A stretch of 36,718 bases of DNA. It comes from Defluviitaleaceae bacterium (GTDB taxonomy: Bacteria > Bacillota > Clostridia > Lachnospirales > WRBF01). A model generated the notes under the pieces. It had not been told where the DNA came from and ran no database searches. It saw nothing but the letters and a program-made list of their open reading frames with translations. The stretch lies in contig WRBF01000016.1 of NCBI GenBank assembly GCA_009784685.1, positions 1 through 36,718 on the forward strand. The letters run 5' to 3'. Made by a program: the position numbers and the translations under genes. Below, in pieces: positions 24,423-28,813 of the stretch (position 1 is the stretch's first letter; each line of letters opens with the position of its first letter).

Positions 24423-24929
24423 ATGAAAAACTCCAATCCGATTTTTAAAGTAGGTACAATTCTTATAACCTTAGGTGCTGTTCTGTTTATGACAGGTTTC
24501 TTTTTTCCGGTGGATGAACCTGAAACTATAAGTAACCGAGAGGTTATAGGGCAAGCTGCTGATCTTAGCATGACGCATCGAAATAACAATACCGAATCAC
24601 AGGTAAATACATCATCGGTTGAAAGCGAATATATGACAGATGAGGAAATTATGCAAAGAGCGGAAGAGCTTGGTATGGTTTTTGAATATTCAAACGATTA
24701 CCAACGGGAAACGGGTCATATAATTATCCAGAATGGTGCGAATGCATCTGATATTGCTTGGATGCTTGAAGAGGCGAAGATAATTGATGATGCTGCTGCG
24801 TTTGCAAGGTTTATATTAATGGAAGATATGGCAAGATATATAAATTCCGGTGAATATCATATTGAAAAAGGGCTTGAATATATAGATGTTTTGAGAATAA
24901 TTTCAACGAGATTCCGGGTACAAAATTAG
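24423..24929 (+). CDS. Membrane protein with MltG-like LysM subdomain, no catalytic domain
   Basis: A 168-residue protein. The N-terminal membrane anchor (about 9-27) is followed by a Thr/Ser/Asn-rich linker and a C-terminal domain (about 97-165) with the pattern of the LysM-like part of MltG/YceG: IIIQNGANASDIAWMLEEAK, then GEYHIEKGLEYIDVLRII. The endolytic transglycosylase domain of MltG, with its catalytic Glu, is absent, so it should bind glycan strands without cutting them. Truncated MltG-like proteins of this kind occur in other Clostridia. AAAGGAG precedes the ATG. It lies between the motility genes and the GlmU-like gene. Confidence 0.75.
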   Translation: MKNSNPIFKVGTILITLGAVLFMTGFFFPVDEPETISNREVIGQAADLSMTHRNNNTESQVNTSSVESEYMTDEEIMQRAEELGMVFEYSNDYQRETGHIIIQNGANASDIAWMLEEAKIIDDAAAFARFILMEDMARYINSGEYHIEKGLEYIDVLRIISTRFRVQN

Positions 24930-24942
24930 CGGAGGCGATTTT

Positions 24943-26064
24943 TTGATAGCACTAATAATACCGAATAAAACAGAGTTTAGCGAAAGAAAAATACTGGGTA
25001 AAACAGTTCTTGAGCATTTAATTATTAGACTTAGCGAAGGGTTTGATGAAGTTTTGATGCTCGATGGTGTATTTGACAGGATTAAATCAGCTAAAGATGA
25101 GAATGTGGATGTGTTTGTAATTTCAGGGGATATACCCCTTGTTGAGCCTGGAGACCTAGAGTCGCTGCTTGACTTTCATATAAATAATGATAATGATTTT
25201 TCGTATGTTGAAAATATTTTAAGCGGCGGTGTTTGCTTTTTCAGATCATCTTCTTTGTTTGAAATTATTTCAATCTGTGGCTTAGATACATTAGATTCAA
25301 TTGAAGTATTGATATCAGAATCGATTAAAAGGTTAAAAAGTGGTGGATTTATCTCGGGGAATACTTTTACAAGGACTAATAATGCGGCAAGATTCCACAG
25401 GATAGTAGAGGCGCTTAAACTTCATGTGAATCTTACATATGAAGAAAACGGCGTACAGTTTATAGACATTGACCGCTGCAATATTGATTTTGGTGTAGAA
25501 ATTGGAAAAGGTACGGTTATTTACCCCGGTGTAATCATCGAAGGCGAAACAGTAATTGGCGAAAACAACGTAATCGGACCGGGTTGTCATTTTAAAAACA
25601 TGAAAATTGGTAATTCAAATAATATGTCCAACACTGTCGCTTATGATTCTGAAGTCGGGGACAATACTGAAACAGGACCGTTCGCATATATTCGTCCGGG
25701 CTGTAAAATTGGGTCAGGCTGTAAAGTTGGGGATTTTGTTGAAGTTAAAAACAGCGTAATGGGTGACGGCGCAAAAGCTTCGCATTTAACATATATTGGA
25801 GATGCGGATATTGGAAAAGGCGTAAATCTTGGCTGTGGTACTGTTGTTGTTAATTATGACGGCAAAAATAAGTTTAGAACAGTTGTTGAGGATGACTGTT
25901 TTGTAGGATGCAATACCAACCTTATATCGCCGGTGACGGTCAAAAAAGGTGCATTTATTGCAGCGGGGTCAACTATTACGGAAGATGTTCCGGAATGTTC
26001 GCTTGCAATTGCTCGTGCTAGGCAGGTTAATAAATTCGATTGGGAAAGACCGGTTAAAAAATAA
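24943..26064 (+). CDS. GlmU-like acetyltransferase with eroded nucleotidyltransferase half
   Basis: A 373-residue GlmU-type protein. The C-terminal left-handed beta-helix (about 177-365) retains every residue I can align with the E. coli GlmU acetyltransferase site at identical spacing: Arg251, Lys269, His281, Tyr284, Asn304 and Lys310 (E. coli 333, 351, 363, 366, 386, 392). It should acetylate glucosamine 1-phosphate with acetyl-CoA. The N-terminal Rossmann part is about 80 residues shorter than usual and lacks the LAAGxGTRM nucleotide-binding loop; only SGDIPLVE (Asp63) recalls the metal site. Uridylyl transfer is therefore doubtful. The start is TTG behind GGAGGCGA. The ROK kinase gene begins 2 bp after its stop. 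Confidence 0.85.
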   Translation: MIALIIPNKTEFSERKILGKTVLEHLIIRLSEGFDEVLMLDGVFDRIKSAKDENVDVFVISGDIPLVEPGDLESLLDFHINNDNDFSYVENILSGGVCFFRSSSLFEIISICGLDTLDSIEVLISESIKRLKSGGFISGNTFTRTNNAARFHRIVEALKLHVNLTYEENGVQFIDIDRCNIDFGVEIGKGTVIYPGVIIEGETVIGENNVIGPGCHFKNMKIGNSNNMSNTVAYDSEVGDNTETGPFAYIRPGCKIGSGCKVGDFVEVKNSVMGDGAKASHLTYIGDADIGKGVNLGCGTVVVNYDGKNKFRTVVEDDCFVGCNTNLISPVTVKKGAFIAAGSTITEDVPECSLAIARARQVNKFDWERPVKK

Positions 26065-26066
26065 AT

Positions 26067-27020
26067 ATGAAGAGAATTGGCATAGATCTTGGCGGAACAA
26101 ACATATCAATAGGGGTAATATCTGAAAATTGTGAAATTTCAAGCAAGCTTGTAATACCTGTTAAGCAAGCAGCAACAGGCGGAAAGCAGTCGAAAGAGAT
26201 TATTGATGATATAATATCGGGTATGCTTAACCTGCTTAAAGCCGAGGGATTGACCTACGCGGATATTGATTTGATTGGTATAGGAGTGCCGGGCATTGTT
26301 AATGCTGATTCCGGAGTTATCATTTATACTCCGAATTTGGAACTGAAAAATGTGCCTATTAAGGAAATTATAGAAATCAAAACGAAAATTTCAGTTAAAA
26401 TCAGTAATGATGCCAATTGTGCGGCTCTTGGTGAAGTTTTGGCAGGTTCTGCAAAAGGTGCTGAAAATGTTATTCTTTTAACCCTTGGCACGGGGGTTGG
26501 TGCGGGGATAATAATTGACGGCAAAATATATTCAGGATGTTATTCCGCCGGCGGTGAAATAGGACATGCGGTAATCGCAGTTGACGGACGAAGATGCGGA
26601 TGCGGAAGAAATGGTTGTTTTGAAGCTTATGCCTCCGCCACCGCTCTTGCTAAAGATGCGCTTGAAACACTTAGATGCTATCCTAATTCATTTCTTATAG
26701 AGATATGTGAAAATTCACTTGATAAAATTAATGGTAAGATGATATTTGAAGCGGCAGCGAGCGGGGATGAATGTGCGCAAGTTGTTGTTAGTCGATACAT
26801 TAAGTATTTAGGTGAAGGCGTTATAACTATTGTGAACATTTTCCGCCCGGAAAAGATTGTGCTAGGCGGCGGAATAGCTGATGCGGGAGACTTTCTTATA
26901 AAGTCTGTTAACGAATATATAAAGGACAAGTGTATGGGCGGTGACTTGCTGCCTGTTCCACCGATTGTTAAAGCCGTTTTGGGTAATGATGCAGGGGTTA
27001 TTGGAGCAGGGATGTTATGA
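26067..27020 (+). CDS. ROK-family sugar kinase (glucokinase type)
   Basis: A 317-residue ROK kinase. The ATP phosphate loop is GIDLGGTNIS near the N-terminus. The sugar-binding and catalytic segment is ISNDANCAALGE, a second glycine-rich loop is TLGTGVGAGII, and GGEIGHAVI leads to the zinc site CGCGRNGC. Glucose is the usual substrate for this branch, but N-acetylglucosamine, glucosamine or mannose kinases share the fold. No good ribosome site is seen in the 2-bp gap, so translation is probably coupled to the GlmU-like gene, which makes an amino-sugar substrate worth considering. The stop overlaps the apbE start (ATGA). Confidence 0.9.
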   Translation: MKRIGIDLGGTNISIGVISENCEISSKLVIPVKQAATGGKQSKEIIDDIISGMLNLLKAEGLTYADIDLIGIGVPGIVNADSGVIIYTPNLELKNVPIKEIIEIKTKISVKISNDANCAALGEVLAGSAKGAENVILLTLGTGVGAGIIIDGKIYSGCYSAGGEIGHAVIAVDGRRCGCGRNGCFEAYASATALAKDALETLRCYPNSFLIEICENSLDKINGKMIFEAAASGDECAQVVVSRYIKYLGEGVITIVNIFRPEKIVLGGGIADAGDFLIKSVNEYIKDKCMGGDLLPVPPIVKAVLGNDAGVIGAGML

Positions 27021-28132: not shown

Positions 28133-28813
28133 ATGAAGCATGTTTATGAAGGAAAGACAAAAAAAGTTTTTGAGTTGCCGGACGGTAACTATTTAATCAA
28201 ATTTAAAGATGAAGCAACAGGAGAAAATGGTGTGTTTGACCCGGGTGCAAATACAGTTGGGCTTACAATCGAGGGAATGGGCAAGGCATGTCTTAAGATG
28301 ACGGATTATTATTTTAATAAAATCAATGATGCGGGAATTCCTACGCATTATGTATCAGCAAATATTGATGATGTGTCGATGACAGTGCTTCCTGCTAAAA
28401 CTATAGGGCGAGGGCTTGAGGTAATATGCCGTTTTCGTGCAACAGGAAGTTTTATGCGCCGCTATGCACTTTATGCAAATGAAGGTCAGGAGCTTGATGC
28501 TTTTGTTGAAGTTACACTTAAGGATGATGACCGCCTTGATCCGCCGATTTCAAAAGATGCGCTCCAAGCCCTTGGTCTTTTAGATGGCGAAAAATATGAA
28601 GAATTAAAGATTTTAACTCAGCGGATAGCAAAGCTCATAAAACAAGACCTTGAAGAAAAAGGTATGGAACTTTATGATATTAAGCTTGAGTTCGGGTTTT
28701 TAAATGGGACGAATGAATTAGCACTTATTGATGAAATTTCCGGGGGAAATATGCGTGTGTTTAAAGATGGAAAGAGTGTTTTGCCTCTTGAGCTTGTTAA
28801 TTTGGTGATTTAA
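28133..28813 (+). CDS. purC: Phosphoribosylaminoimidazole-succinocarboxamide synthase (SAICAR synthetase)
   Basis: Joins CAIR with aspartate using ATP in de novo purine synthesis. The N-terminus YEGKTKKVF is the ATP-binding strand-loop of the family. VICRFRATGSFMRRY contains the conserved arginines, and the metal/ATP region is represented by DIKLEFGF and IDEISGGNMR (usual DEISPDxxR). The length of 226 residues is slightly under the typical 235-240. The start has AAAGG upstream. It is not in a purine operon here. It converges with tmcAL across 182 bp that hold a dispersed repeat and a long hairpin. Confidence 0.92.
   Translation: MKHVYEGKTKKVFELPDGNYLIKFKDEATGENGVFDPGANTVGLTIEGMGKACLKMTDYYFNKINDAGIPTHYVSANIDDVSMTVLPAKTIGRGLEVICRFRATGSFMRRYALYANEGQELDAFVEVTLKDDDRLDPPISKDALQALGLLDGEKYEELKILTQRIAKLIKQDLEEKGMELYDIKLEFGFLNGTNELALIDEISGGNMRVFKDGKSVLPLELVNLVI

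Follow-up and report, generated by a model that had tools for sequence, protein, structure and literature searches.

By sequence, the window (the whole 36,718-nucleotide stretch of DNA analyzed here) encodes a GlmU orthologue that has a complete acetyltransferase domain and a decayed uridylyltransferase domain. GlmU is a bifunctional GlcN-1-P acetyltransferase/GlcNAc-1-P uridylyltransferase and carries out two consecutive steps toward a cell-wall precursor. We consider it likely that the window GlmU is an acetyltransferase only and that P0002, a nucleotidyltransferase encoded in the same genome, makes UDP-GlcNAc; we infer both activities and the order of events from protein families, structure models, and gene distribution.

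RESULTS

The Acetyltransferase Half of the Window GlmU

The open reading frame list, profile matches, and an alignment with 24 homologues (alignment A1) place the gene for this protein (P0001, 373 aa) at 24943..26064 on the forward strand. It opens with a TTG codon, a credible start because a GGAGG ribosome-binding site (24931..24935, forward strand) lies 7 nt before it. Residues 146–373 (25378..26061, forward strand) correspond to a complete left-handed β-helix acetyltransferase domain, as judged from profiles, PDB alignment, A1, and a structure model. Residues 146–368 align to positions 224–446 of NF010934 GlmU (the full-length protein scores 313.5 bits) and to positions 223–452 of TIGR01173, against which the protein scores 274.7 bits, under the curated cut-off of 366.85. 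The C-domain is 60% identical to that of a full GlmU from another genome. In the AlphaFold2 model the β-helix is found at high confidence behind a shrunken N-terminal domain, and the complete model fits onto crystal structures of GlmU (TMq 0.68–0.79).

The initial annotation had reported acetyltransferase residues at exact E. coli spacing, and A1 bears this out: Arg-251, Lys-269, His-281, Tyr-284, Asn-295, Lys-310, and Arg-358 are invariant and correspond, at a constant offset of 82, to E. coli Arg-333, Lys-351, His-363, Tyr-366, Asn-377, Lys-392, and Arg-440. His-281 (codon 25783..25785, forward strand) is the equivalent of His-363, the catalytic base of GlmU.

The window glmU is placed after flagellar genes and is followed, 2 bp after its stop codon, by a gene for a ROK-family sugar kinase (26067..27020, forward strand; open reading frame list and Pfam/profile matches), with which it is probably co-transcribed. 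The kinase scores 255.5 bits, just under the ROK glucokinase cut-off of 260.35. Elsewhere in the window, positions 24423–24929 encode a 168-aa protein that matches the N-terminal part of MltG/YceG only (below cut-off) and has no catalytic domain, and positions 28133–28813 encode a 226-aa SAICAR-synthetase-like protein (104 bits, compared with a curated purC cut-off of 190).

The Decayed Uridylyltransferase Half

Residues 1–145 (24943..25377, forward strand) appear as a shrunken, alternating α/β fold in A1, in the AlphaFold2 model, and in a Pfam trace. This uridylyltransferase domain has ∼145 residues, compared with ∼225 in full GlmU, and the earlier reading of an N-terminal domain about 80 residues short and devoid of GxGTRM agrees with the gaps in A1. 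Relative to full Clostridia GlmU, A1 reveals three deletions, which comprise the LAAGxGTRMKS loop (G-loop), the LQEKQLGTGHAVMQA segment ending in GTGHAV (GTxHA segment), and the GYGRIIRD...VEHKDA...EIN segment. The GDIPL motif of the nucleotidyltransferase fold survives (residues 62–66; 25126..25140, forward strand; A1 and PDB alignment), including the Mg-ligand aspartate Asp-63. Pfam returns for this domain a sub-threshold NTP_transf_3 trace only (residues 49–90, E 0.032), and pLDDT values are mostly 60–88. The domain is probably a catalytically inactive relic that might still serve in folding or in the packing of the trimer.

Other Candidate Enzymes in the Genome

The acetyltransferase site is thus intact and the uridylyltransferase site is gone, in support of the initial proposal that the protein acetylates GlcN-1-P and depends on a further enzyme for UDP-GlcNAc. 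We searched the genome of the window (1.53 Mb, 77% complete) for such an enzyme. The TIGR01173 profile found neither a second GlmU, the complete copy that the initial annotation had suggested looking for, nor a stand-alone N-domain in this 77% complete assembly. Its only further matches are IspD (contig C33) and a γ-carbonic-anhydrase-like protein (contig C18), which we rejected on these identities as halves of a split GlmU. PF00483 matches only a GlgC/GlgD-like pair, P0002, and IspD. At the same completeness there is no match to UDPGP (PF01704) or GlmR (TIGR01826), and GalU was not found. A nucleotidyltransferase that is co-distributed with N-domain loss, P0002, is present.

Recurrent Decay of the GlmU N-domain in Clostridia

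A short N-domain is found, in graded degrees, in 64 of 163 sampled GlmU orthologues (a sample enriched for such cases), which argues against a chance event. Across Clostridia the decay ranges from mild through stronger to total absence of the N-domain; among the milder cases in A1, ILSSGMGTRMKS is still readable in L193 (genome G229), and L207 (genome G323) shows IFASDEGTGMKS. A tree of the 163 C-domains, four rows of which duplicate another row with identical sequence, requires at least 16 changes between full and short forms, 8 of them forced by well supported branches. In this tree the full GlmU of G276, a genome that also has P0002, is sister to a C-domain-only form with P0002 (98% support).

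The canonical glmU locus is spoVG-glmU-prs-pth-mfd. In R. papyrosolvens, a GlmU of 410 aa with a decayed N-domain (L009) is encoded between genes that we take, by reading their sequences, to be spoVG and prs-pth-mfd. We found no report of natural GlmU truncation or loss in the open-access literature.

Taken together, these data bear on three other accounts of the window gene. That a sequencing or assembly error truncated its N-terminus, as the initial annotation had considered, is hardly credible: the genome is probably metagenome-assembled, judging from assembly statistics, but the reading frame is open, the three internal deletions are in register, the ribosome-binding site is good, and the same graded decay recurs in dozens of independent genomes, which argues that the loss is no artifact of assembly. 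We consider it quite unlikely that the unassembled 23% holds either an entire glmU or a gene for a separate N-domain and that the window gene is a redundant paralogue. The completeness of 77% leaves room for such a gene, and pairs of split GlmU genes occur in other families; against this, near-complete relatives with the C-domain only (G018, G026, G250, and G339, each 100% complete, and G004, 97%) contain no N-domain and do contain P0002, which makes a full glmU in the missing part of the window's genome unlikely. We rejected the paralogue hypothesis, including the specialized paralogue raised in the initial annotation, because the active-site residues are unchanged, the 77% complete assembly yielded no other GlmU, and the decayed R. 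papyrosolvens relative occupies what reads as the canonical locus. It is also very improbable that the window protein acetylates another sugar phosphate outside UDP-GlcNAc synthesis. The adjoining ROK kinase and the position downstream of flagellar genes would fit such a role, but the active-site residues are those of GlmU, no other GlmU-like acetyltransferase turned up in the genome, and the C-domain shares the 60% identity given above with a full GlmU.

P0002, a Candidate UDP-HexNAc Pyrophosphorylase

P0002 is a 305-aa nucleotidyltransferase (G000:C20:18049–18963) and a clear member of the PDB 3PNN family (E 1.7e-83; model TM 0.92); after 3PNN, its fold is nearest to RmlA/UDP-glucose pyrophosphorylases. 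AAGxGSR, Lys-21, GTxHA, and ADD are kept in the family (23 homologues) and make up, by sequence, a full pyrophosphorylase site of the kind that a sugar-phosphate nucleotidyltransferase should have.

Physical linkage between glmU and the P0002 gene was not seen in the ∼11-kb neighborhoods that we read. Genome G240 has a galE-P0002-nahK operon, in which the neighbor of the P0002-family gene matches N-acetylhexosamine 1-kinase crystal structures (E 3e-96). P0002-nahK operons are also found in G266 and G059, where the kinase was assigned by mutual similarity, and galE-P0002 operons in R. papyrosolvens (P0002 homologue at L131:1477–2403) and G250; in some genomes, such as G265, a ROK kinase lies beside P0002. 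On a Hymenobacter tibetensis plasmid (L274:5001–7063), an N-acetylhexosamine 1-kinase gene overlaps a P0002-family gene by 4 bp, which extends the pairing to Bacteroidota. The adjoining N-acetylhexosamine 1-kinase points to a HexNAc-1-phosphate as the substrate of the family, and for P0002 itself we infer GlcNAc-1-phosphate.

Co-distribution of P0002 with N-domain Loss

We compared the occurrence of P0002 with the state of GlmU, defined by TIGR01173 domain coverage, in 196 genomes of the order. Among the 34 genomes that retain the GlmU C-domain and nowhere encode the N-domain, 30 have P0002, compared with 17 of 113 full-GlmU genomes (Fisher p 4e-15). The rest of the class behaves alike (19/25 without the N-domain versus 18/85 with full GlmU, p 9e-7), as do the named genomes (7/7 versus 6/23, one of the six being a weak fragment). 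When relatedness is accounted for, eight independent pairs remain, five in the expected direction and none opposite, a test of little power at this number of pairs (sign test p 0.06). The family is also enriched in class genomes without any GlmU domain (17/27); P0002-family enzymes despite the loss of both domains are seen, for example, in G233, G243, G310, G314, G319, and G320. Since 15–26% of full-GlmU genomes carry P0002, the enzyme must have another role too.

True split GlmU, with separate N- and C-domain genes, occurs in eight genomes (G007, G028, G256, G263, G290, G317, G325, and G341), and P0002 is absent from all of them. In most split-GlmU genomes the C-domain protein still bears a decayed N-terminal remnant. 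In most exceptions to the P0002 pattern, the GlmU N-domain is encoded by a gene of its own, or UDPGP or GlmR is present instead: the high-completeness genomes G019 and G258 encode GlmR, and UDPGP is found in G158. Further exceptions (G145, G161, and G281) are incomplete genomes. Tiny genomes of family f30 (G230, G268, G322, and G345; 0.8–1.1 Mb, 99–100% complete) have the C-domain only and, among the known replacements tested, neither P0002 nor GlmR nor any other, which counts against our proposal.

UDPGP (PF01704), which is related to eukaryotic UAP1, is found mostly where GlmU is missing or is represented by its N-domain alone, in order families f6 and f9 (G005, G008, G027, G029, G051, and G125 among them), a distribution suggesting that in some Clostridia the UDP-GlcNAc pathway ends as it does in eukaryotes. 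A GlmU N-domain without a C-domain of comparable score was seen in G002, G003, G012, G027, G040, G043, G249, and G259.

The main rival to our assignment accepts an acetyltransferase-only window protein and sees in P0002 a GalY-like hexose-1-phosphate (galactose/glucose) uridylyltransferase, with some other enzyme making UDP-GlcNAc; we regard this as improbable. A published prediction (PMC5583593) assigns galactose-1-phosphate as the substrate of GalY (Amuc_0031), a member of PF00483 that clusters with galE, and P0002, which shares the Pfam family and has galE neighbors, may belong to the GalY family. The nearness of its fold to RmlA/UDP-glucose pyrophosphorylases and the lack of a detected GalU in the window's genome would fit as well. 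The strong tie to GlmU N-domain loss is, however, unexpected for a galactose enzyme, the product of the neighboring N-acetylhexosamine 1-kinase is a HexNAc-1-phosphate, and split-GlmU genomes are without P0002. A broad P0002 that uses both substrates may reconcile the GlcNAc-1-phosphate and GalY-like readings. There is little chance that GlmR (YvcK) supplies the lost activity instead. It is a proven accessory GlcNAc-1-P uridyltransferase that makes UDP-GlcNAc in vitro (PMC10128056), and it is found in the C-domain-only, P0002-less genomes G019 and G258, in the latter on the same contig as glmU. It was not found, however, in the 77% complete genome of the window and is missing from most C-domain-only genomes tested (G004, G018, G026, G033, G050, G226, G265, G266, G284, G335, and G339, for example), for which reason we rejected it as a general replacement. 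UDPGP/UAP1 was rejected in that capacity because it occurs in families f6/f9, mostly in genomes without GlmU or its C-domain, and not in the window's genome.

DISCUSSION

In the pathway that we propose, with P0002 as the partner of an acetyltransferase-only GlmU, the window gene would be the organism's glmU after losing one of two activities. Its C-domain would acetylate glucosamine-1-phosphate with acetyl-CoA to give GlcNAc-1-phosphate, which a separate nucleotidyltransferase, most likely P0002, would convert with UTP to UDP-GlcNAc and PPi. A salvage HexNAc-1-phosphate uridylyltransferase that was already present probably rendered the GlmU N-domain redundant, and the redundant domain would then have decayed repeatedly in different Clostridia. 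The occurrence of P0002 beside full GlmU, G276 included, suggests that the replacement enzyme came first and that N-domain decay followed. More broadly, we lean toward regarding the 3PNN-type family as an unrecognized class of bacterial UDP-GlcNAc pyrophosphorylases, which served first in salvage with N-acetylhexosamine 1-kinase and then repeatedly displaced the uridylyltransferase half of GlmU across Clostridia, with all stages of decay still visible.

GlmU is taken to be essential, bifunctional, and intact, and it is regarded as a target for antibacterial drugs. If our proposal is true, a sizeable share of Clostridia (in the order sample, 34 genomes versus 113 that have full GlmU) makes UDP-GlcNAc by a different, uncharacterized enzyme and would escape inhibitors directed at the uridylyltransferase site of GlmU. 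The last step to UDP-GlcNAc becomes a silent gap because TIGR01173 leaves such glmU genes below its cut-off. The solved 3PNN structure would gain a testable function, and the system would present a stepwise domain loss that follows non-orthologous replacement.

Compared with GlmU as described by TIGR01173 and NF010934, the window protein retains the complete acetyltransferase domain with its residues and their spacing, whereas its uridylyltransferase domain is decayed and without the nucleotide-binding segments. It resembles the GlmU C-domain crystal constructs (PDB 3twd and 4aa7), which likewise present the acetyltransferase domain without an active N-domain; those are laboratory truncations, whereas the loss described here is natural and evolutionarily repeated. 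P0002 belongs to the same family as PDB 3PNN from P. gingivalis, to which no function has been assigned and for which we propose a UDP-HexNAc pyrophosphorylase role. Like GlmR/YvcK (PMC10128056), P0002 would supply UDP-GlcNAc outside GlmU; GlmR/YvcK is of a different, CofD-related family that is found neither in the window's genome nor in most of the C-domain-only genomes tested. The proposed pairing with a kinase also recalls AmgK/MurU and NahK salvage, where a kinase and a nucleotidyltransferase lead from a free sugar to a UDP-aminosugar, but P0002 is a 305-aa enzyme of the 3PNN type and would, in our proposal, have been taken over into de novo synthesis.
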